Positions 8,260 to 54,369 of a stretch of 64,000 nucleotides of DNA are shown here, one piece after another. The position numbers and the translations under genes are program-made. This DNA is from Candidatus Cloacimonadota bacterium (lineage in GTDB: Bacteria > Cloacimonadota > Cloacimonadia > Cloacimonadales > Cloacimonadaceae), in the NCBI GenBank assembly GCA_020532085.1, contig JAJBAV010000001.1, forward strand, positions 1 through 64,000, read 5' to 3'. The notes under the pieces were generated by a model. That model was not told where the DNA came from, made no database searches, and was given only the letters and a program-made list of their open reading frames with translations. Every line of letters starts with the position of its first letter. Within the stretch, counting starts at the first letter, position 1.

Positions 8260-8348
8260 GCTCCCAATATCAATACGGTATCAATACGGAATCAATACGG
8301 ATTTCATCCGTAATGATTCCGTATTGATACCGTATTGATATTGGGAGC
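8260..8348. repeat. 43-bp-arm hairpin built from 11-bp tandem words (ORF-less cassette or mini-element)
   Basis: Arms at 8260-8302 and 8306-8348 are complementary over 43 bp with a single mismatch and a 3-nt loop (TTC). Each arm contains three tandem copies of an 11-bp word of the type CAATACGGTAT / CAATACGGAAT / CAATACGGATT. There is no U tract, so it is not a normal intrinsic terminator, although an RNA copy would fold very stably. Its place (18 bp after the gpsA stop) and its word-repeat make-up resemble the arms of the GxxExxY cassettes elsewhere in the window. Confidence 0.85.
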
Positions 8349-10716: not shown

Positions 10717-10729
10717 GGTTCACTCCAGG

Positions 10730-11400
10730 GAATTCGTCGCGGAAAAACGCGGAAAAAAGAAAAATGAAAAAAGAGAAAAATACGGAATCAGGTGGACAAA
10801 CCAAATTGGTCGATTGGCGTAACATTAAATCATGTCCATTGGGGGGCAACAAGCTCATGCAAAAAATGTTGAAATCCCGATTCCATGCATACTTCCGGTA
10901 AAATCAAGCCTGTTGGGAAAAACTGTTAATCATGCGCTTGAAGGATGGCCGTGGGCCAAAGTTCAGTAATACTCCATGGCCGGTGTTTGTCGAAGCTAGA
11001 TAGTTGATCAGCTGTGATTCATGTTCCGAAGTCAATTTCGCCGCAGTTTTGATCTCCACAATCACCAAATTGTCCACATAAAGATCGGCATAATAATCAC
11101 CGACCTCCACGCCTTTGTACTTAACCTTGATAGGTTTCTGGGACTGCACTTCATAACCCAGGGCCTTCAGTTCTATCTTCATGGCGTTTTCATATACCTT
11201 TTCCAGATAGCCGAAACCAAGATTGTTGTAAACAATGAAAAAACAATCGATTATCCTGCTACTGACGTCCTTTTCGATCTTTTTTTCTTCCATTTACCCC
11301 TCCACTAATTGTTTGGCCCGGTGACGTGACCCCCACATTGGTGTTTCTCTTTTTTTCTTCATAGCATTTCTCTTTTTCCGCGCTTTTCCGCGACGAATTC
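10730..11400. mobile_element. TIR cassette A carrying a GxxExxY gene (udk/wecB junction)
   Basis: Inverted arms at 10730-10766 and 11365-11400 start with the identical GAATTCGTCGCGGAAAA and match over about 36 bp, with two mismatches and one indel. The single gene between them (10904-11293) reads in the same direction as both neighbours. The right arm encodes the last 13 codons of wecB; the left arm ends 13 bp before the udk start. Related solo arm copies lie at 23761-23791 and 29739-29769. No transposase or recombinase gene and no clear target duplication were seen. Confidence 0.8.
10904..11293 (-). CDS. GxxExxY protein (PD-(D/E)XK nuclease-like, PDDEXK_3)
   Basis: The 129-residue protein belongs to the small GxxExxY family, whose fold is assigned to the PD-(D/E)XK nuclease superfamily; its biological role is unknown. 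The naming motif appears as LGFGYLEKVYENA (residues about 24-36). The catalytic-type residues are present: Asp in YYADLYVDN and Glu/Lys in VIVEIKTA, followed by SQLINYL. It has its own strong ribosome binding site (GGAGGGGTAA before ATG 11293). It is the only gene inside cassette A, bounded by inverted repeats, and is one of four such genes in this window. Confidence 0.88.
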   Translation of the reverse strand: MEEKKIEKDVSSRIIDCFFIVYNNLGFGYLEKVYENAMKIELKALGYEVQSQKPIKVKYKGVEVGDYYADLYVDNLVIVEIKTAAKLTSEHESQLINYLASTNTGHGVLLNFGPRPSFKRMINSFSQQA

Positions 11401-12447
11401 TCTTTCCAGCAAGTCCAGGATCTTGAGCGAAACGTCAGAGCCGAAGAGGTCGGGGCGGCTGGAGGGAGGCCGGAAATCCAGGATGGAGAGGGGGAAAGCC
11501 CTGGAATCTACAGGCAGAAGGAGGTTCCAGCCGCTGGCCACGGTTTCGGTCCATTCGGTTTCGGAACGCAGGGTAACGCAGGGTATGCCGAGGATGCAGG
11601 CCTCTTTCTGAATGCCTCCGGAATCGGTGAGCACCATGTCCGCCGCGCCCATCAGGCTGATGAAATCCAGATAGGAAAGGGGTTCGACGTAGCGCAGGTT
11701 GGCAAAAATGTCCAGATCGATCCGTGCCAATACGTTGCGGGTGCGGGGATGAACAGGAAAGACGATGGTTTTGCCCAGACTGTTCAGGGCTTTCAGGATA
11801 TGCTCCAGGCGGGCGGGATCGTCCACATTGTAAGGCCGGTGCAGGGTTAGCAGGGAAAAGGAGCCAGCCTGGAGAGAAAGTTCAGCCAGGATGTCGGAAA
11901 AGCCCTCCGCCAGCTCCAAACCCAGCTTCAGGCTGTCGGACATGATGTCGCCAACCAGGCGGGCTTTGTCCTGCAGGCCTTCGCGGCGGGCGTTCTCCAT
12001 GGCCGTGGGAGTGGGACAGAGAAGCAGATCGGAAACATGATCGGCCACCACTCGGTTGATCTCTTCTGGCATGGAGCGGTTGAAACTGCGCAGGCAGGCT
12101 TCCACATGGGCGGTCCTGAGGCCGAGTTTGGCCGCCGCCAGCACCCCGGCGAGGGTGGTGTTGGTATCACCGTAAACGATCACCCAATCGGGGTTTTCCT
12201 CTGCCAAAACGGGTTCCAGGGCGGCCAGGATCTCCGCTGTCTGCACTCCCTGGCTGCCGGAACCGATGTTCAGGTTGTGGTCCGGCGCCGGGAGCTGCAT
12301 GTCCCGGAAGAAAACGTCGTTCATCTGGACGTCATAATGCTGTCCGCTGTGGATGATTATCTCCGAATGGCGTTCTCGGATCAGGCGCGAAAGCGGGGCC
12401 AGTTTCACGAACTGGGGCCGGGCACCGACGATCTGGGCTATTTTCAT
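11359..12447 (-). CDS. wecB: UDP-N-acetylglucosamine 2-epimerase (non-hydrolysing)
   Basis: Interconverts UDP-GlcNAc and UDP-ManNAc for surface glycans. The 362 residues include GARPQFVKLAPL, HSGQHYD, YGDTNTTLAG, HVEACLRSFNRSMPEEINR (UDP binding) and LTDSGGIQKEA, the family hallmarks. The start has AAGGAGCAGCC before ATG. The last 13 residues (EFVAEKRGKREML) are encoded by the right arm of cassette A. They look foreign to the family, so the native C-terminus was probably trimmed or extended there. A second, distinct wecB lies at 37054-38160 in the polysaccharide locus. Confidence 0.94.
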   Translation of the reverse strand: MKIAQIVGARPQFVKLAPLSRLIRERHSEIIIHSGQHYDVQMNDVFFRDMQLPAPDHNLNIGSGSQGVQTAEILAALEPVLAEENPDWVIVYGDTNTTLAGVLAAAKLGLRTAHVEACLRSFNRSMPEEINRVVADHVSDLLLCPTPTAMENARREGLQDKARLVGDIMSDSLKLGLELAEGFSDILAELSLQAGSFSLLTLHRPYNVDDPARLEHILKALNSLGKTIVFPVHPRTRNVLARIDLDIFANLRYVEPLSYLDFISLMGAADMVLTDSGGIQKEACILGIPCVTLRSETEWTETVASGWNLLLPVDSRAFPLSILDFRPPSSRPDLFGSDVSLKILDLLEREFVAEKRGKREML

Positions 12448-31681: not shown

Positions 31682-32159
31682 TTTTTTCCTACGGATTCAA
31701 CGGATTAAACTGATTTTACGGATTTACCTGTTAATAGAGATTGGCGATGCGTTCCCAACGCAGACTGCGTTCGCCAAAGTTGATCACGAAACCGAGTTTC
31801 AAGTTTGAAAGCTTAAGATAGTTCAGCACCTGACTCGTGTGTACAGGCAGCATCTTATCGGTCGCTTTCAGCTCCAAGATAATTTTATCAAAACAGACAA
31901 AATCCACTTTATAAATCTTATTCAGGGGCAAACCCTTATAGACAACTGGAAACTCCTGCTCCCTGGCGTAGGGTATCGATCGATCCCTCAGTTCGTGCTC
32001 CAAAGCTTCAGCATACACGGCCTCCAACAATCCGCAACCCAAATGGTTATGAACTTCCATGCAGGCAGCCAGGATCTGTTCAGTTAAGTCTTCGTATATC
32101 AAGCCCATCTATGATACATCCGTATAATCAGTTAAATCCGTTGAATCCGTAGAAAAAAA
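31682..32159. mobile_element. TIR cassette D carrying a GxxExxY gene
   Basis: Arms at 31682-31724 and 32117-32159 match inversely at about 39 of 43 positions (core CTACGGATTCAACGGATT). The right arm ends one base from the stop codon of the upstream sugar transferase (stop 32161-32163), and the left arm ends 12 bp from the start of the downstream secreted protein. The word, AATCCGT in the other strand, recurs as solo copies at 23.9-24.1 and 25.5-25.6 kb. The single internal gene is co-directional with both neighbours. Confidence 0.82.
31731..32108 (-). CDS. GxxExxY protein (PD-(D/E)XK nuclease-like)
   Basis: 125 residues. The family helix reads LGCGLLEAVYAEALEHEL. The nuclease-type residues are Asp in YKVDFVCFDK and Glu/Lys in IILELKATDKM, followed by TSQVLNYLKLSNLKLG and a terminal VINFGERSLRWERI. 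All four copies in this window differ strongly outside these motifs, so they are not recent duplicates of each other. The start is ATG 32108, with GGATG about 10 bases upstream contributed by the arm. It is the only gene in cassette D. Confidence 0.88.
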   Translation of the reverse strand: MGLIYEDLTEQILAACMEVHNHLGCGLLEAVYAEALEHELRDRSIPYAREQEFPVVYKGLPLNKIYKVDFVCFDKIILELKATDKMLPVHTSQVLNYLKLSNLKLGFVINFGERSLRWERIANLY

Positions 32160-32160
32160 A

Positions 32161-33765
32161 TCAGTTGCTCCGGGCCCGGTTGAAGAGGATGTTCCACACC
32201 CCGCGCCAGAAATATTTCCAGTCGGTGGAGAAAGGCTTGGCCTGCTTGGCCAGGATGTAGCGGCGTTCGGATTCCACGATCTCGTCGAAGGTTTGGGGCA
32301 GGTCGGTGTAAAAAGGCGGCATGAGGCCGGGCTTGAGTTGCAGCCGCAGTTCCTGCATGTCCGGTGGATAGAGGGAAAAGTAGTGTTCGCTGAGGGCGCG
32401 GACCCCCACCAGCGCAAGGTCGCCCTTGAAGAAGTTGAGCAGCTGGGGCAGTTCGTCGATCCAGAGCGCGCGCAGGATCCGGCCCCAGGAAGTCACGCGG
32501 AAATCGTTCTTGAATTTTCCGCCTTCCTGCAGGGCGTTGGCCTGATAGACGTAATCCTGCAAGTATTCGCTGTAAGGATGCATGGTGCGGAGTTTTTTCA
32601 CGTAGATGGTTCTGCCGCTTTGGCCCAGGCGTTTAAGGCGGATGAGCGGACCGTAGGTGGGATTGGGATCGGTGCGCGGCGGTCTTGATTTTTTAAGGAT
32701 GAAGTGCATGTGCCCGGCGACCTCGCGCTTGTGGATTAGCTCAAAGCCGCAAAAATAGAAACGGCCGAGCATCTCGGTCTCGGCAAGGGCGCGGTTTTTG
32801 CCTTTGGTGAGGGCGAAATACCAGCCCTGCAAAACGGGGAGTTTGGGCATCACGCGGCGAAGGAGGAAATCGCCGAAATAGAGCGGCGCGCCGAGGACGG
32901 GGGTGAATTTCTTATGGAATCTTTTACGCCGCTGGGTGATGGTTTGGCCGTGGCAGATGAAAACGCCTCCATCCTGCAGCAGTTCGTTGACTTTGATGAG
33001 ATAGAGGTTGAGGCGGCGGAAGTCATTGACGCGGTGGAGATTGATGAAGAGCTGATGGGAGTTCGGGGCTTCGTTCTCAATGTTGAAATAGGTTTCGGAA
33101 TTGAGCACCAGGGTCTGGGAGCGGCAGAAGCGACTGAGCTCCAGATAGTCGTTGAGGAAGGAAAACAGCTCTTCCTGTTTGCCCAAGTAATTCTGCCAGA
33201 GGGGGACAAGGATGCTCTCTTCAGGAGCGCACTCGGAATAGGGCGGCGCGTAGCTGCTGTGGTTGAGGGTGGGAATGCCTTCCGGCTTTTGGAGAAAATG
33301 GGCCGGGCTCTGCGCCTCCTCCAGGGCTTGGGACCTGGTAACCAGCGGCGTGGCGGCATAGGTCCGGTTTTCCCGGCTGAATTTGAGAGCGTAGAACAGC
33401 CCCACGAAGAAAAAGAGTTCCAAGCCCACGCTGCCCAGCATCGTTCCCAGGACAATCATCCGGGAATAGTGGAACTGGTCGAATATGTACATGGCGCCAA
33501 AGACGACAGCCGCGGAAAAGAGGTCGCACTGCACTATCTGTTTCACCATTTTGGCGCCGTTGGAGACTTTCTGGAGCAGGTATTTGCCACCCAGGATGCC
33601 GCCGATGATCCAGATCAGGACGAAAGCGCCCAAGGAACGCCACCAGACAAAGTCCGCCAGGATGCGCCTTGTGCCATCCCGGATCTTGGCCACGAAAAGG
33701 AAGGCGAAGACGACTATCAGGATGTCCAGCAACAGGAGCAGATACTTGGATGACTTGTATTTCAT
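32161..33765 (-). CDS. Initiating sugar transferase (polyprenyl-phosphate glycosyl-1-phosphate transferase type)
   Basis: Transfers a sugar phosphate to the lipid carrier to start glycan synthesis at the inner membrane. The 534-residue protein has four N-terminal membrane segments (up to about residue 140). A middle domain (about 200-340) includes LLQDGGVFICHGQTITQRRK. The catalytic domain (about 370-534) includes LIRLKRLGQSGRTIYVKKLR, then TMHPYSEYLQDYV, DDFRVTSWG-like DFRVTSWGRILRALWIDELP, and KGDLALVGVRALSEHYFSLY. This is the variant common in Bacteroidota, lacking the usual hydrophobic re-entrant helix just before the catalytic domain. No Shine-Dalgarno is visible: cassette B's arm begins 6 bp upstream of the start. 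Confidence 0.88.
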   Translation of the reverse strand: MKYKSSKYLLLLLDILIVVFAFLFVAKIRDGTRRILADFVWWRSLGAFVLIWIIGGILGGKYLLQKVSNGAKMVKQIVQCDLFSAAVVFGAMYIFDQFHYSRMIVLGTMLGSVGLELFFFVGLFYALKFSRENRTYAATPLVTRSQALEEAQSPAHFLQKPEGIPTLNHSSYAPPYSECAPEESILVPLWQNYLGKQEELFSFLNDYLELSRFCRSQTLVLNSETYFNIENEAPNSHQLFINLHRVNDFRRLNLYLIKVNELLQDGGVFICHGQTITQRRKRFHKKFTPVLGAPLYFGDFLLRRVMPKLPVLQGWYFALTKGKNRALAETEMLGRFYFCGFELIHKREVAGHMHFILKKSRPPRTDPNPTYGPLIRLKRLGQSGRTIYVKKLRTMHPYSEYLQDYVYQANALQEGGKFKNDFRVTSWGRILRALWIDELPQLLNFFKGDLALVGVRALSEHYFSLYPPDMQELRLQLKPGLMPPFYTDLPQTFDEIVESERRYILAKQAKPFSTDWKYFWRGVWNILFNRARSN

Positions 33766-33771
33766 TTTGTT

Positions 33772-34458
33772 AATAGATTAGGGATGAACAGGATGAAAAG
33801 GATCGATGCGATTTTGAAAGTAACTTTCTGGATTTGGATAAGAACCGCTTCAATCTTGCGTGGAAACTTGCCATTACCCCAGTTTCGCTTGGGGCTGTTT
33901 CTTAGCTCAAGAAATCCGTAGTCCATTGTAATGTAATAACTCCCATAAATCCACTTCATCCTGTTCATCCCGAGTCTATTATTCTGTAACAATCACTTTC
34001 TTGTCGGTATTGAGATAGGTCTTGCGTCTGATTTCAGGCTTGATCCCAAAATTCAACAGCAATCCCACTTCAATATTGGTGGCCCTCAAATAGTTTTGAA
34101 GCTGTAGAATATGATCATTCGCAAGGGTTGAAGCCGCTTTCAGTTCGACAATGACCAAGCCTTCGACAACAACATCCGCGAAGTATTCTCCAACAGGAAT
34201 CCCGCCGTAGTAGACCTTAATCGGATACTGCGCTAATGCTTTAAGACCCTGTTTATTCAACTCATGCACAAAGGCGTTCTCATAGACCTTCTCCAGGAAA
34301 CCAAAACCTAAGGAATTGTAAACTGTATAGAAGCAGGCAATTATCCTGTCAGTAAGCTCACTAAGAAGCATGGAATCTACGGGGCTGTCCATCATAAATC
34401 ACTCATCTTGCTACAAAATCCCATAAATCCTCAACATCCTGTTCATCCCTGATCTATT
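33772..34458. mobile_element. TIR cassette B carrying a GxxExxY gene, with a third internal arm
   Basis: Outer arms 33772-33803 and 34427-34458 are complementary at 28 of 32 positions (core AGGGATGAACAGGATG). A third copy at 33949-33980 has the same orientation as the right arm. The unit thus reads left arm, 145-bp spacer, right-type arm, GxxExxY gene, right arm, which could be an ORF-less element next to or inside a gene-bearing one. The right arm contains the TAG stop codon (34454-34456) of the upstream epimerase, and the left arm lies 6 bp from the sugar transferase start. Confidence 0.8.
33979..34395 (-). CDS. GxxExxY protein (PD-(D/E)XK nuclease-like)
   Basis: 138 residues. The naming helix is LGFGFLEKVYENAFVHEL. 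Catalytic-type residues are Asp in EYFADVVVEG and Glu/Lys in VIVELKAASTL, followed by LQLQNYLRATNIEVG and LLNFGIKPEIRRKTYL. It is closest in this window to the copy at 10904-11293 (shared NSLGFG/NNLGFG and EKVYENA). A start at ATG 34395 or 34392 is equally possible; the ribosome binding site is weak. The stop codon overlaps the internal arm copy of cassette B by two bases. Confidence 0.88.
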   Translation of the reverse strand: MMDSPVDSMLLSELTDRIIACFYTVYNSLGFGFLEKVYENAFVHELNKQGLKALAQYPIKVYYGGIPVGEYFADVVVEGLVIVELKAASTLANDHILQLQNYLRATNIEVGLLLNFGIKPEIRRKTYLNTDKKVIVTE

Positions 34459-35383
34459 TAAAAAAATCAATCGTGCGCTGGAGGCCTTCACGGAAGTCCA
34501 CCCGGACCTCATATCTCAGCAGTTCCTTCGCTTTTTCGATCCCCGCCAAGGAATGTTTCACATCCCCCGGCCGCTCGGGTTCGAAGCGCGGCTGGATGTC
34601 CTTGCCCAGGATAGCGTTGATCATTTGCACCAGGTCCAGCAGGGTGTAGCGCTCCCCGCAGGCGATGTTGATCACCTCGCCGGCAGCCTTGGCCGCTGTA
34701 CAGGCCTGGATGTTGGCCCAGACGTTGTTTTCCACGAAGGTGAAGTCCCGGCTCTGGCTGCCATCGCCGTAGATGATGGGCTCCCGGTCCTGCTGGATCA
34801 GTTTGATGAACTTGGGGATCACGGCGCTGTACTGCGAGGTGGGGTCCTGGTTGGGGCCAAAGACGTTGAAGTAGCGCAGGGACACGGTTTCCAGGCCATA
34901 GAGGCTGTAAAAGACCTGGCAGTAACGCTCCTGGGCGTATTTGGTGAGCGCGTATGGCGACATCGGATTCACCGGCATCGTCTCCACCTTGGGCAGGGTT
35001 TCGCTGTTGCCGTAGATCGAGGATGACGAGGCGCAGACGATTCGCTTTACGCCAAATTCCTTGGCCGCTTCCAGCAGGTTGAGCGTGCCCAGGATGTTCA
35101 CGTCGTTGGAGGTGATGGGATCGTTGATTGAGCGCGGCACGGAAGGCAGAGCGCCCTGGTGCAGGATGTAATCCACGTCCTTGACAGCGGCGCGCACGAT
35201 GTGGAAAGAGCGCAGGTCGCCCTCGATCATCGTGAGCTGCTGGTCCTTCATCAAGGGCAGGATGTTTTCCCGCTTGCCGGTGGCAAAGTTGTCCAGCACC
35301 CGCACTGACTGGCCCTGGTTAAGCAGTTCCCTAACGATGTTGGAGCCGATGAAGCCGGCCCCGCCGGTGACTAAGTATATCAT
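34454..35383 (-). CDS. NAD-dependent sugar epimerase, UDP-GlcNAc 4-epimerase type (WbpP/GalE-like)
   Basis: Extended short-chain dehydrogenase of 309 residues. The NAD motif is TGGAGFIGSN, the catalytic Tyr/Lys pair sits in SPYALTKYAQE (preceded by ASSSSIYG), and RYFNVFGPNQDP and GDGSQSRDFTFVENN follow. This pattern suits UDP-N-acetylglucosamine or uronate 4-epimerases of polysaccharide loci, though the exact substrate is inferred. The ribosome binding site GAGG lies between the start and the left arm of cassette C; the stop codon lies in the right arm of cassette B. Confidence 0.9.
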   Translation of the reverse strand: MIYLVTGGAGFIGSNIVRELLNQGQSVRVLDNFATGKRENILPLMKDQQLTMIEGDLRSFHIVRAAVKDVDYILHQGALPSVPRSINDPITSNDVNILGTLNLLEAAKEFGVKRIVCASSSSIYGNSETLPKVETMPVNPMSPYALTKYAQERYCQVFYSLYGLETVSLRYFNVFGPNQDPTSQYSAVIPKFIKLIQQDREPIIYGDGSQSRDFTFVENNVWANIQACTAAKAAGEVINIACGERYTLLDLVQMINAILGKDIQPRFEPERPGDVKHSLAGIEKAKELLRYEVRVDFREGLQRTIDFFK

Positions 35384-35392
35384 TTATGCCTC

Positions 35393-35885
35393 GGTTTCCC
35401 GCAGATTCACGCAGATAAAAGCGCAGATAAACGCGGATCACTAAAGATTGTTAACATGCCGAATTATGCTGTCTTTCATCGAGTCTGTGTTGAAATTGAC
35501 CAGATAGCCGAGCTTTATGTTTGCTAATTTCAAATAGGTGAGGAGCTGCTTGTGATGAAGATCGGACAGCTTTTCGACCGATTTCAGTTCAATGAGCACT
35601 TTCCCCTCCACCAAGATATCGATCCGGTAAGACGTACCCAGTTCAAGACCCCGATATAGTACATTTATCGGCACCTGAGTCTCAACCGATAATCCCAGGC
35701 TCCCCAATTCAAACGCTAATGCTGCCTCGTAGGCTGATTCAAGCAGACCAGGACCCAGCTCATTATGCACTTTGAAACAAGCGCCACGGATCTGATAACC
35801 TATATCATTCTCAGTCATTTTGTCCATCAACCTGTATAATCTGCGTTAATCTGCGCTTTTTTTCTGCGATAATCTGCGGGAAACC
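35393..35885. mobile_element. TIR cassette C carrying a GxxExxY gene
   Basis: Arms 35393-35438 and 35839-35885 share GGTTTCCCGCAGATT at the outer ends and match over 46-47 bp with five mismatches and one indel. They consist of the words CGCAGATT and GCGCAGAT. The right arm encodes the last 12-13 residues and stop of the upstream deacetylase-like gene, and the left arm ends 9 bp before the epimerase start. A related solo copy is at 25405-25439. Confidence 0.82.
35441..35827 (-). CDS. GxxExxY protein (PD-(D/E)XK nuclease-like)
   Basis: About 128 residues. The family helix is LGPGLLESAYEAALAFEL. Catalytic-type residues are Asp in SYRIDILVEG and Glu/Lys in VLIELKSVEKL, then HKQLLTYLKLANIKLG and YLVNFN. 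The first ATG in frame is at 35827 after ACAGGTTG; a TTG three bases earlier is possible. Everything outside the motifs differs from the other three copies. It is the single gene of cassette C, read in the direction of both neighbours. Confidence 0.88.
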   Translation of the reverse strand: MDKMTENDIGYQIRGACFKVHNELGPGLLESAYEAALAFELGSLGLSVETQVPINVLYRGLELGTSYRIDILVEGKVLIELKSVEKLSDLHHKQLLTYLKLANIKLGYLVNFNTDSMKDSIIRHVNNL

Positions 35886-50313: not shown

Positions 50314-51387
50314 TCAAAGCACGCTTCCCAATTTGGAGATATATTCCCCAAGGGCCTCAGCGCCCACATTCAGCGGCAGGGTAAGTGCGTGGTCCTGCAG
50401 ATCCCAGGAATACTCATGCTCTTTTCTATCGATCTCTTTCGACAGCAGCCAATGCAGGGGACAGTGAACACCCAGCTTGTGCAGAGCCTTTTTTTTGGCA
50501 TCCCGATCCCTCAGATATACCGCCATTCCCAAGGGCACAACCTCACCCAATTCACGCTTGATTATCAAATTGGGCGATATGCTGTGTAGTATCAGCTTGA
50601 ACACAGACCTTCGCTGCCTTCCCAACAATGTATAATCAATTTTATCCAGCAGATAACGGTTCACCCGGGGCATGCCGATCACACCCGGCTGGTGGTAGCA
50701 GGCATTGGCTTTGTCAAGCAACCCCAGAAACGCCTTGGGAGAAAGCAGACCCGTCTCAAGGTGCAGATATCTCAATGCCTGAGCTGTACGTTTTTGGGCC
50801 AAAAAGGGAATAATGGACCTGAGGGAAGTATTGAAGCGCAGGGGTTCTCGAGACATGAGCACGCTCGCTTCGAAGGGAGTGTACTTCCTCAGGCTGTTGA
50901 AGCAATAATCCCCATATAACTCATTCTCGCTATTCAGCCAGCTCTGCACCGCATCTTGCAGGATCGCAACCCCCCGCTGCTTCAGCCAGCTCATAATATC
51001 TTTCAAATTCTCCTTTTGGGGCAAACCAAAATGATCAATGAACAAGATCGCTTTAAGACCCGGGCCAGCCTTTCTATCGATATCACCGAGGTCAGGCAGC
51101 AACCCCTCTTTCAGCTTATAAAATTCGTAGCTAACGCCAGCCTCACGGAAGGGCCGGATAATGCTTGGACAAAGATACGAGGGCAACAAAACTGTCTGAG
51201 TGCTGTCCATACTCAAGTGCTCAATTATCACTTTCAGCGAATAGTAGGCCCCAAAAGTGTACTGGCGGTAATACCCAGTATTTTCCAGCCCGTATTTAGA
51301 GAACTGCCCTAAGTATGGGCCAAACAGTAACCCAGGATGGATAAGAAACTCACCGCCGACAGCGAATCTTTTAAGCATAGGCCCCAT
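50314..51387 (-). CDS. DegT/AHBA-like PLP-dependent aminotransferase homologue
   Basis: 357 residues with fold-type I features: YRQYTFGAYYSLKVIIEHLS, VLLPSYLCPSIIRPFREAGV, AILFIDHFGLPQKENLK, ILQDAVQSWLN and YCFNSLRKYTPFEASVLMSR, where the Lys of SLRK could be the PLP lysine. It is more distant from typical sugar aminotransferases than its neighbour LegC. Its start overlaps the 3' end of legC by 17 bp (an ATG at 51378 is an alternative). Substrate unknown. Confidence 0.72.
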   Translation of the reverse strand: MGPMLKRFAVGGEFLIHPGLLFGPYLGQFSKYGLENTGYYRQYTFGAYYSLKVIIEHLSMDSTQTVLLPSYLCPSIIRPFREAGVSYEFYKLKEGLLPDLGDIDRKAGPGLKAILFIDHFGLPQKENLKDIMSWLKQRGVAILQDAVQSWLNSENELYGDYCFNSLRKYTPFEASVLMSREPLRFNTSLRSIIPFLAQKRTAQALRYLHLETGLLSPKAFLGLLDKANACYHQPGVIGMPRVNRYLLDKIDYTLLGRQRRSVFKLILHSISPNLIIKRELGEVVPLGMAVYLRDRDAKKKALHKLGVHCPLHWLLSKEIDRKEHEYSWDLQDHALTLPLNVGAEALGEYISKLGSVL

Positions 51388-52741
51388 CCGGAGCAGCCCA
51401 TCCTGGAGAGCTGGGCAGATTTACAAGCCGTGAGGCAATGTCCATCGCGCTGGGTAACTCCCCCGCCAGACAGGAGCTGTACATATTCAGTTTGTTCATC
51501 AGGGTCCAGGCAGGCCTGGACATTATGCCGCTGCGCTTTGACTCCTCCAGGAACCCGTCCCTCAATTCACTGTTTGGCAGCAGAATGGCGTTCAACCAAT
51601 AGTTAGAAATAGCATGGTCAGGTTCAGAGATAAGGGTCATTTCGCTGTCTTTGGCGAAGAATGTATGGTAGCGCTGGGCGATCTCCCGCTTGCGCCTCAG
51701 TATCTGGGGCAACATCTCCATCTGGGCGCAACCCAGCGCGGCATTGACGTTCGGTAACCGGTAATTGAACCCGGTCATGTCGTGCAAGAATTCCCAGGCA
51801 TGGGGAACCTTGGCTGTGGTGGTCACATGTTTGGCCAATCTGCCGAGATCATCCTCGTTGGTAAGGATCATCCCGCCGCCACCGGTGGTGATGGTTTTGT
51901 TGCCGTTGAAGCTCAATATCCCCAACAATCCAGAAGTCCCCGTATGCCGGCCCTTGTAGTAGCTGCCAATGGATTCCGCTGAGTCTTCCACCACCGGAAT
52001 GTGGTACCGGCCACAAATCTCAACGATCCTATCAATTTCGCAGGGATGGCCGAAAGTATGCATGGGCACGCAGGCGGATATCCGTTTTAGCCCACTAATG
52101 TTCACGAATGAAGGATCACAAATGCGCACGAATGATTCACTGGAGGGTTGGGAGGGTTTATTTTGGTTAACCGGCTTTGTGATCGGTTCAGCGCCTTTGG
52201 TCTGGCGTCCAACTCTTTCTCCTTCGCTACCTTGTGAGTTAACATTTGTGAAAATTCGTGCTCCTTCATTTGTGCCCATTTGTGGTAGATAGAAACACTG
52301 TAAAGTTCCATCAAACTCAGAAAGGACTGCGTTATTAGCCAGCCAGGCTTCCAAGGCATCTGCGGAGAGACCCAGAGTTTTCCGGTCAACGTCGATGAAC
52401 AAAGGTTCCGCTCCGCAGTAGGCGATGGCGTTACAGGTGGCAATGAAAGTCAGAGGCTGGGTGATCACCAGATCATTTCTCTGAACGCCGGCCAGCAGTA
52501 GAGCCGCGTGTAAGGCAGCAGTTCCGTTTACAGTTGCCACAGCGTATTTCGCTCCGGTGAATTCCCGGATCATGTCCTCGAAGCGGTCCACATATTTCCC
52601 CACGCTTGACACATAGGTGGAATCAATGCAGTCCAGCAGGTATTTCTTTTCATTACCTCCGAAGAAGGGTTCTTGGAGGGGAATGGTTTCCCTGCCAGGA
52701 TACAAGGAGTGGATGAAGTCGATGATCGGTTGAAAGTTCAT
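51371..52741 (-). CDS. legC: LegC-family sugar aminotransferase with a 65-residue in-frame insert
   Basis: 456 residues, PLP-dependent, putting an amino group at C4 of a nucleotide 4-keto-6-deoxysugar. The family runs are IPLQEPFFGGNEKKYLLDCI, STYVSSVGKYVDRFE, VPMHTFGHPCEID, VEDSAESIGSYYKGRHTGT, SFNGNKTITTGGGGMI (PLP Lys) and GFNYRLPNVNAALGCAQ. Family members have only a few residues between the 'FYLPQ' and 'RISACVPMHTFGHP' segments. Here about 65 residues (152-217) intervene, encoded by an ORF-less inverted-repeat element (52091-52286). The start ATG has no Shine-Dalgarno because the arm of cassette E lies upstream. It follows legB. Confidence 0.88.
   Translation of the reverse strand: MNFQPIIDFIHSLYPGRETIPLQEPFFGGNEKKYLLDCIDSTYVSSVGKYVDRFEDMIREFTGAKYAVATVNGTAALHAALLLAGVQRNDLVITQPLTFIATCNAIAYCGAEPLFIDVDRKTLGLSADALEAWLANNAVLSEFDGTLQCFYLPQMGTNEGARIFTNVNSQGSEGERVGRQTKGAEPITKPVNQNKPSQPSSESFVRICDPSFVNISGLKRISACVPMHTFGHPCEIDRIVEICGRYHIPVVEDSAESIGSYYKGRHTGTSGLLGILSFNGNKTITTGGGGMILTNEDDLGRLAKHVTTTAKVPHAWEFLHDMTGFNYRLPNVNAALGCAQMEMLPQILRRKREIAQRYHTFFAKDSEMTLISEPDHAISNYWLNAILLPNSELRDGFLEESKRSGIMSRPAWTLMNKLNMYSSCLAGELPSAMDIASRLVNLPSSPGWAAPDGAYA
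52091..52286. mobile_element. ORF-less TIR element inserted in frame in legC
   Basis: Arms 52091-52134 and 52243-52286 are inverted copies. Both contain GAATGAAGGA/CACAAATG-type words, with about 30 of 44 positions matching when aligned without gaps. The same words (CACGAATG, CACAAAT) make up the arms of the ORF-less element at 54179-54351 and the tracts at 23.96-24.09 kb. The reading frame of legC stays open through the whole insert, which encodes a low-complexity, Ser/Pro/Gln-rich segment. Confidence 0.8.
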
Positions 52742-52746
52742 TGTTG

Positions 52747-53151
52747 CTATGGTTGAGGGGGTTTAGAGGGTTTAGAAGGTTGAGTAGGTTTTTTTATGGC
52801 GGCATTTCTCAGCTGAGTTAGCTGGTATGAGATCACATCGATTGATTCTCTGGTGTTGTGACAGCTAACCTCATCGATATAACCCAAGTCCAAGCACAAC
52901 GTGAGTTGGCACAGCACTTCCATAAGGCTGGCATAGGCAGTCTGGTAAAAGTGTCCCTGATCTTTTGAGCTTTGCCGGGAAGCTCCTTCAGCAATATTGG
53001 AACTCACAGATACCGCTGCGCGTTGTATTTGGCTAATCAACCCATATTTCTCTTCAGTCGGCAAAGATCTTGTGAGGCAGTAGATCTCTTTCACCAGTTT
53101 CCTCGCTTTTTGCCATACGCTGAGTTTTTCAAAACCATACTCTCTGATCAT
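52747..53151 (-). CDS. Four-helix-bundle protein (23S rRNA intervening-sequence family)
   Basis: 134 residues: FEKLSVWQKARKLVKEIYCL, LPTEEKYGLISQIQRAAVSV, SSNIAEGASRQSSKDQGHFY, ASLMEVLCQLTLCLDLGY and SYQLTQLRNA. These match the TIGR02436/PF05635 family first known from intervening sequences in bacterial 23S rRNA and related to Avd of diversity-generating retroelements. The C-terminus (KKPTQPSKPSKPPQP) is encoded by the cassette arm. It is the only gene in cassette E and lies between legB and legC; it clearly has no role in sugar synthesis. The GAGAGAG ribosome binding site is supplied by the right arm. Confidence 0.92.
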   Translation of the reverse strand: MIREYGFEKLSVWQKARKLVKEIYCLTRSLPTEEKYGLISQIQRAAVSVSSNIAEGASRQSSKDQGHFYQTAYASLMEVLCQLTLCLDLGYIDEVSCHNTRESIDVISYQLTQLRNAAIKKPTQPSKPSKPPQP

Positions 53152-53193
53152 ATCAACTCTCTCAACACTCTAAACCGTCTAAACCCTCTAAAC
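52761..53193. mobile_element. TIR cassette E carrying a four-helix-bundle gene
   Basis: The outer arms share GTTTAGAGGGTTTAGA at 52761-52776 and, inverted, near 53178-53193. The similarity continues less cleanly through the word GGTTTAGAGTGTTGAG. The TAG stop of legB (53188-53190) is part of the right arm. The left arm ends 19 bp before the legC start codon. Architecture is the same as in the GxxExxY cassettes, but the cargo is different. Confidence 0.78.
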
Positions 53194-54165
53194 ATTATAT
53201 ATTCCTGGTTTGTATTTCGCCAAGTTACGTGGATCTGAAAACCATTCAACTGTCTTTTCCAACCCCTCCCGGAGTGTGTGCCGTGGTTCCCATCCGGTCA
53301 GCGCTTGAATCTTGCCATTGTCACACCACAGCCTGAACACTTCAGATTTTTCCGGGCGCACGCGCTGTTTGTCCAGTATAAACTCCACATCGCTACCAGT
53401 AATGTCTTTGATAAGTTCGAGGGTGTCCATTATGGATATCTCAGCGTTTGAGCCTATGTTCACCACTTCCCCAATCGCTTGGTCACACTTGGCGAGTTGG
53501 ATAAAGCCCTGACAGATATCGTCCACATAGTTGAAATCCCGGGTGGGGCTCACGTCACCCAGCTTAATCGCTTTCACACCCGAGGCGATCTGCGTGATGA
53601 TGGTGGGTATCACCGCCCTGGCCGATTGCCGGGGTCCGTAGGTATTGAAGGGGCGGGCGATCGTTAGGGGCAGTTTAAAGGCGTTATAAAAACTCATGGC
53701 CATGGCATCCGCTCCGATCTTACTGGCGCTGTAAGGGGATTGGGGCTGCAGGGGATGTTTTTCATCGATGGGTACATACCGGGCTGTGCCGTACACTTCG
53801 CTGGTGGACGTGCAGATGATCCTTCTCACTTTGCTATCCAGGGCAGACTGGCAGATGTTCAGAGTTCCCCTTACATTGGTGTCCACATAGCTGTCCGGAG
53901 CAGTGTAAGAATAGGGTATGGCTATCAGGGCAGCCAGATGAAAGATAACGTCGATATCCTTGCTTATGATTCTGCAGAAATGCGGATCGCGTATATCTCC
54001 ACAAACAACCTCCATGGCTTTCTGGAGAGGAATATCCTCCAGCCAACCCCAGTGATTGAAGGAATTATACTGAGCCAAAGCCCGCACCTCATATCCGGCG
54101 GCCAGCAAGGCTTCAGTCAAATGGGAGCCGATGAATCCGTCTGCTCCTGTCACCAAAACTTTCAT
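53188..54165 (-). CDS. legB: NAD-dependent nucleotide-sugar 4,6-dehydratase, LegB type
   Basis: 325 residues, extended SDR. NAD motif TGADGFIGSHLTEALL, then FHLAALIAIPYSYTAPDSYV, STSEVYGTARYVPIDEKHPL, catalytic YSASKIGADAM, IARPFNTYGPRQSARAVIPT, TRDFNYVDD and VNIGSNAEISI. It would make a 4-keto-6-deoxy sugar nucleotide (UDP- or GDP-GlcNAc based) that LegC aminates. No NeuB/LegI synthase or CMP transferase is in the window, so the end product may be a 4-amino-4,6-dideoxy sugar or legionaminic acid. Start ATG 54165 follows AAAGGAATAAAC. The stop codon lies in cassette E. Confidence 0.92.
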   Translation of the reverse strand: MKVLVTGADGFIGSHLTEALLAAGYEVRALAQYNSFNHWGWLEDIPLQKAMEVVCGDIRDPHFCRIISKDIDVIFHLAALIAIPYSYTAPDSYVDTNVRGTLNICQSALDSKVRRIICTSTSEVYGTARYVPIDEKHPLQPQSPYSASKIGADAMAMSFYNAFKLPLTIARPFNTYGPRQSARAVIPTIITQIASGVKAIKLGDVSPTRDFNYVDDICQGFIQLAKCDQAIGEVVNIGSNAEISIMDTLELIKDITGSDVEFILDKQRVRPEKSEVFRLWCDNGKIQALTGWEPRHTLREGLEKTVEWFSDPRNLAKYKPGIYNV

Positions 54166-54178
54166 GTTTATTCCTTTC

Positions 54179-54351
54179 CCACTAATGAGCACAAATAAAA
54201 GACACTAATTTTCACAAATATAAGGTTTAATAGCGACTGCAATAGCAAACTTCAATGCCTGAAATTCACAGCTATGAACTTGATTAATCAATACTTTCCC
54301 AACAAACTCATTCGTGGCCATTCGTGCTTTTTTATTTGTGGTCATTCGTGG
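54179..54351. mobile_element. ORF-less TIR element between a nucleotidyltransferase gene and legB
   Basis: Arms 54179-54219 and 54311-54351 are inverted relatives built from CACTAATG/CACGAATG and CACAAATAAAA words, for example ACAAATAAAA in both. About 90 bp lie between them with no gene. The left arm ends 13 bp before the legB start and the right arm 18 bp after the upstream stop (54370-54372). Confidence 0.78.
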
Positions 54352-54369
54352 TAGATCAATTGTGGCGGA

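Follow-up and report, generated by a model that had tools for sequence, protein, structure and literature searches.

The window, comprising the first 64,000 nucleotides of contig JAJBAV010000001.1 from a Candidatus Cloacimonadota genome of 2.8 Mb (G000 below), includes part of a polysaccharide cluster whose intergenic spaces hold many cassettes bounded on either side by inverted word arrays. A related element lacking any ORF lies inside the coding sequence of legC, on the reverse strand. The features concerned are:

51371..52741, minus strand: legC, LegC-family sugar aminotransferase, 456 aa, stop included (matches to TIGR04181, DegT_DnrJ_EryC1 and PDB folds)
52092..52285, minus strand: ORF-less inverted-repeat element of 194 bp, in frame in legC, encoding about residues 153-217 (predicted disorder 143-209)
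52243..52285, minus strand: upstream arm in the sense of legC, four CACNAATG words with 10-14-10 spacing, read as PQMGTNEGARIFTN
52092..52134, plus strand: downstream arm, inverted, four CACNAATG words with 10-14-10 spacing
52742..53194, minus strand: four-helix-bundle (23S_rRNA_IVP) cassette immediately upstream of legC, bearing inverted arrays of GGTTTAG-type words at 52752-52784 and 53161-53193
54179..54352, no strand assigned: second element of the same family, intergenic and ORF-less, between NAD-epimerase and nucleotidyltransferase genes
10727-11403, 31682-32159, 33765-34465, 35393-35885 and 52752-53193: five ORF-bearing cassettes, four GxxExxY and one four-helix bundle

The arms of the legC element are 43 nt each, 77% complementary and 108 nt apart, and CACNAATG-type words stand in each of them at offsets 0, 10, 24 and 34. 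The exact 10-14-10 array of CACNAATG occurs three times in the whole genome, once in each legC arm and once in the element at 54179-54352, where a single arm has it, and a reversed-pattern control was found nowhere in the 2.8 Mb, so chance does not explain it. The word CACGAATG is present in six copies in the window (2.1 expected). The legC ORF is open across the element, the loop of which has no stops in the legC frame vs. 2 and 11 in the other two sense frames, and only 2.2% of shuffled loops were open. The insert so read would comprise about 65 residues, with predicted peptides such as GAEPITKPVNQNKPSQPSSESFVR. In a family-model search, the LegC protein matched TIGR04181 with 510 bits in two stretches broken exactly at the element, and the match to DegT_DnrJ_EryC1 was likewise split into two stretches, one on either side. 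The 43-nt arms, the open frame and the interrupted family match bear out the original prediction of an ORF-less inverted-repeat cassette lying in frame in legC.

AlphaFold models were computed for 12 sequences from the window and its relatives. In the LegC of the window the core pLDDT is mostly high and residues 143-209 are below 50, and the PDB neighbours retrieved with Foldseek are sugar aminotransferases. This combination of a confident core, a low-confidence insert and familiar fold neighbours indicates, as far as the models go, a disordered stretch added to an otherwise normal LegC. The residues invariant across 12 LegC proteins are all retained, and in 7b0m, the solved structure nearest in sequence, hardly anything stands at the position of the insert. 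The predicted structure therefore fits the suggestion made earlier that an active enzyme is produced with a loop insertion. At the coding start of legC (52655-52697) Rfam gave a sub-threshold match to PhotoRC-I RNA (33.9 bits vs. a gathering threshold of 45), which is probably due to chance.

The length of the LegC loop was measured from the conserved F(V/I)D motif to the ACVPMH motif in about 80 LegC proteins from many phyla and in 27 Bacteroidota loci. In about 95 LegC from other groups it was, with few exceptions, 37-38 residues long, compared with 88-94 aa in two relatives carrying the element, G047 and G034. In the Saprospiraceae and Flavobacteriales genomes searched, loops were of normal length (38-39 residues) except in the insert carriers found before. 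The insertion is accordingly, on comparison of the sequences, a real one. The original prediction had proposed that a similar segment in close homologs would mark an ancestral domain. A similar element does occur in G034 and G047 at the same point, and since the loop of other family members is short or holds another repeat, the comparison indicates that the element is not an ancestral domain of LegC.

The original prediction had also raised the question whether the inserted residues are unique to this LegC. Uniqueness is not supported, as other Cloacimonadota carry either CACNAATG arrays or unrelated arrays in the same loop. Within the same family of the phylum, in-frame CACNAATG elements are found in G047 and G034, with G002 having a partial copy, whereas the loops of G001 and G049 contain GGTTGAG/GGTTTAG palindromes, that of G007 a ACGGATTAC/ACGAATTAC array running to the contig end, and those of G030 and G029 a tandem CTCAACNGGGCGCAGCCC repeat. 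G033, G021 and G046 have a short loop or one with no array, and an array is also absent from the loop in G051 and G060, which belong to other families of the same order. In all these relatives legC is intact, and in eight of eight carriers the legC frame has no stops across the loop, the other sense frames mostly having stops (up to 11). The LegC loop therefore appears to be a recurrent landing site for repeat elements in Cloacimonadota. With most LegC homologs lacking an insert and relatives having unrelated arrays in the same loop, the earlier claim that the repeat elements also enter coding DNA is upheld.

For the loops of G030 and G029, pN is 0.084 and pS 0.357, close to the values of the enzyme core, although this is a single pair in which repeat units may have been exchanged. 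Such a pattern is as expected for translated sequence and indicates protein-level constraint inside the insert. The GGGCGCAGCCC and GGACGAAGTCC units of these two loops (L011 and L012) both code for the peptide GRSP but differ in each of its four codons, and thus both the palindrome and the peptide have been kept. The element stands at the same point and in the same frame in G000 (PQMGTN), G047 (PQMDSN) and G034 (PRMGTN). This shared position favours inheritance, and the window copy may have been inherited together with those of G034 and G047; a LegC tree did not separate one ancestral CACNAATG insertion from several. In the legC of G051 (L014) a second in-frame array, of CTCAACCTCAATC type, lies in the C-terminal half and is similar to a GAGGTTGAGGTAGAGG array immediately downstream of legC.

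The GxxExxY proteins form a nuclease-fold family without an assigned role, and to our knowledge they are not known as transposases. Many GxxExxY cassettes across the phylum have inverted array ends made of differing words, and in G034 and G003 GxxExxY genes are flanked by CACNAATG 10-14-10 arms. Because of these shared arms the legC element is best seen, in terms of sequence, as an ORF-less relative of the GxxExxY (PDDEXK_3) and four-helix-bundle word-array cassettes. The five cassettes of the window have inverted end arrays each built from different words, and the sequences suggest that the word type is cassette-specific. All exact CACNAATG arrays of G000 (three) and of G034 (five) lie within 2.3 kb at legC. 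A scan for inverted arrays over 426 kb of sampled sequence found word arrays inside ORFs in LegC loops, at cassette or ORF edges and in one unconvincing ORF, and nothing further. A literature search on the repeat words and cassettes returned nothing relevant.

Each loop was compared with the 2-kb flanks of its own legC by local alignment and 200 shuffles. The words of the loop match an array within 2 kb in seven of the eight array-bearing loops, each time above all 200 shuffles, and the matched array is usually the end of a GxxExxY or four-helix-bundle cassette; the four array-free loops have no match in their flanks. When flanks were permuted among seven genomes the observed match was reached in 20 of 5040 orders, a figure to be read with the small sample in mind and as coming from a test designed after the pattern had been seen. 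With other flank limits the array-free L043 (G021) comes just above the shuffles and L042 (G049) does not exceed them, since its array then falls inside a stop-to-stop ORF. The closest correspondence is that of G034, where the loop arm and the arm of the adjoining GxxExxY cassette are identical at 40 of 42 positions. In G000 the loop finds its match not in the adjoining cassette but in the element some 1.4 kb upstream of the start of legC, and G047 has no matching array near legC. The match of loop and flank is also seen outside the phylum, at two Bacteroidota loci: the L054 loop matches the end of a four-helix-bundle cassette, and that of L047 an array which is itself in frame in an upstream dehydratase-like gene. 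The latter gene (L047 850-1510, Flavobacteriales) has an in-frame repeat insertion of its own that includes CCCTGAGCGAAGTTGAAGGG and also a GAACAACGAACAACG array, which matches the LegC loop.

We consider it probable, from the sequences compared, that the legC insert is an ORF-less cassette-end element which was copied locally into coding DNA and is tolerated as a translated, disordered loop. Copies of array ends would be made into DNA a short distance away, and those that land in the tolerant LegC loop and in frame would survive. On translation by the ribosome the element would add about 65 disordered residues, with which the enzyme would still work. The element would stay in the RNA with nothing removing it, in spite of the possible hairpin, given that the frame is preserved in carriers. 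A wider and more tentative proposal is that GxxExxY and four-helix-bundle cassettes bring with them a short-range copying of their end arrays, so that in several phyla the LegC loop is rewritten again and again from the cassette beside it. It is also conceivable, at about the same tentative level, that a single ancient word-array insertion in the loop was later rewritten by gene conversion with neighbouring arrays, i.e. by concerted evolution. The common point and frame in G000, G047 and G034, and the way the loop type follows the neighbouring array, are in line with such a history. Nevertheless, some arrays differ in period (9 vs. 10-14-10) and structure and the interiors are not obviously alignable, so conversion would have had to replace nearly everything, and G021, G046 and G060 are without any array.

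A classical MITE that a transposase mobilised in trans, so that legC would hold an ordinary transposition product tolerated in a loop, seems rather unlikely. Bacterial MITEs and intragenic ERIC and BOX elements are non-autonomous inverted repeats able to fuse in frame with genes (PMC10969869), and the legC element resembles them in its inverted terminal arrays, its lack of a transposase or any other ORF and its ORF-bearing relatives with the same arms. However, none of nine elements examined has a target-site duplication of at least 4 bp, no transposase-like ORF was found, and where MITEs are dispersed and multicopy, the window genome has only two exact-array elements, both near legC. The GxxExxY cassettes, which share ends with the element in G034 and G003 and might take the place of an autonomous partner, are not known transposases. 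Removal of the element from the mRNA or its bypass by the ribosome, yielding an enzyme without the extra residues, is most improbable. The arms can pair as an RNA hairpin (-61.9 kcal/mol, z -3.6), and the four-helix-bundle proteins take their name from rRNA intervening sequences; the element shares with the 23S rRNA intervening sequences its complementary ends and, in the adjoining cassette, the four-helix-bundle (IVP, PF05635) family. On the other hand, it lies in a protein gene and at intergenic sites rather than in rRNA, its legC copy has no ORF and gives no sign of excision, the variable base of the words is seen on inspection to be unpaired between the arms, and an Rfam search at the element gave no match. 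Conservation of the frame in every carrier would be needless if the element were removed, and this, with the protein-level constraint in one pair, speaks against the RNA-level removal that had been offered as an alternative in the original prediction. Least credible of all is that a hypervariable, tolerant loop simply drifted, with no mobile or copied element involved. The non-repeat extension common to two Prevotella LegC (L075 and L084) agrees with it, but drift would not be expected to give rise to exactly spaced four-word arrays in inverted orientation, nor to matching arrays in the flanks.

The preferred reading, local copying of an ORF-less cassette end into a tolerant loop, has its nearest parallel in the Rickettsia palindromic elements (RPE). 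These comprise several families of short elements, about 100-200 bp, found in frame in many genes and apparently translated and tolerated (Ogata et al. 2000, 2002, reviewed in PMC10969869), and a similar process outside Rickettsia has been called conceivable (PMC10969869). The legC element, of 194 bp with 43-nt arms, is palindromic in the same sense, if somewhat longer than a palindrome of about 100-150 bp, and is likewise in frame in a protein gene with no stops. Unlike RPE, it occurs in another phylum and is built of short repeated words, its arms are shared with GxxExxY cassettes and the loop type matches the neighbouring array. RPE enter many unrelated genes, whereas one recurrent host loop was seen here in the 426 kb sampled. 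We therefore regard the legC element as comparable to RPE in behaviour, a likeness of description rather than of RPE sequence, and do not claim membership. In-frame palindromic elements have so far been treated mainly as a peculiarity of Rickettsia, and here a single enzyme loop appears as the repeated landing site of several unrelated arrays, with a likely donor visible beside the gene. GxxExxY and four-helix-bundle cassettes are common but almost unstudied, and their origin and mobility can now be tested. Near-perfect palindromes of another kind, with arms of 30-48 nt, an 11-nt centre and ATCAATACGG words, are repeated along this contig, at 8260-8348 of the window and at L150, L151 and L153.
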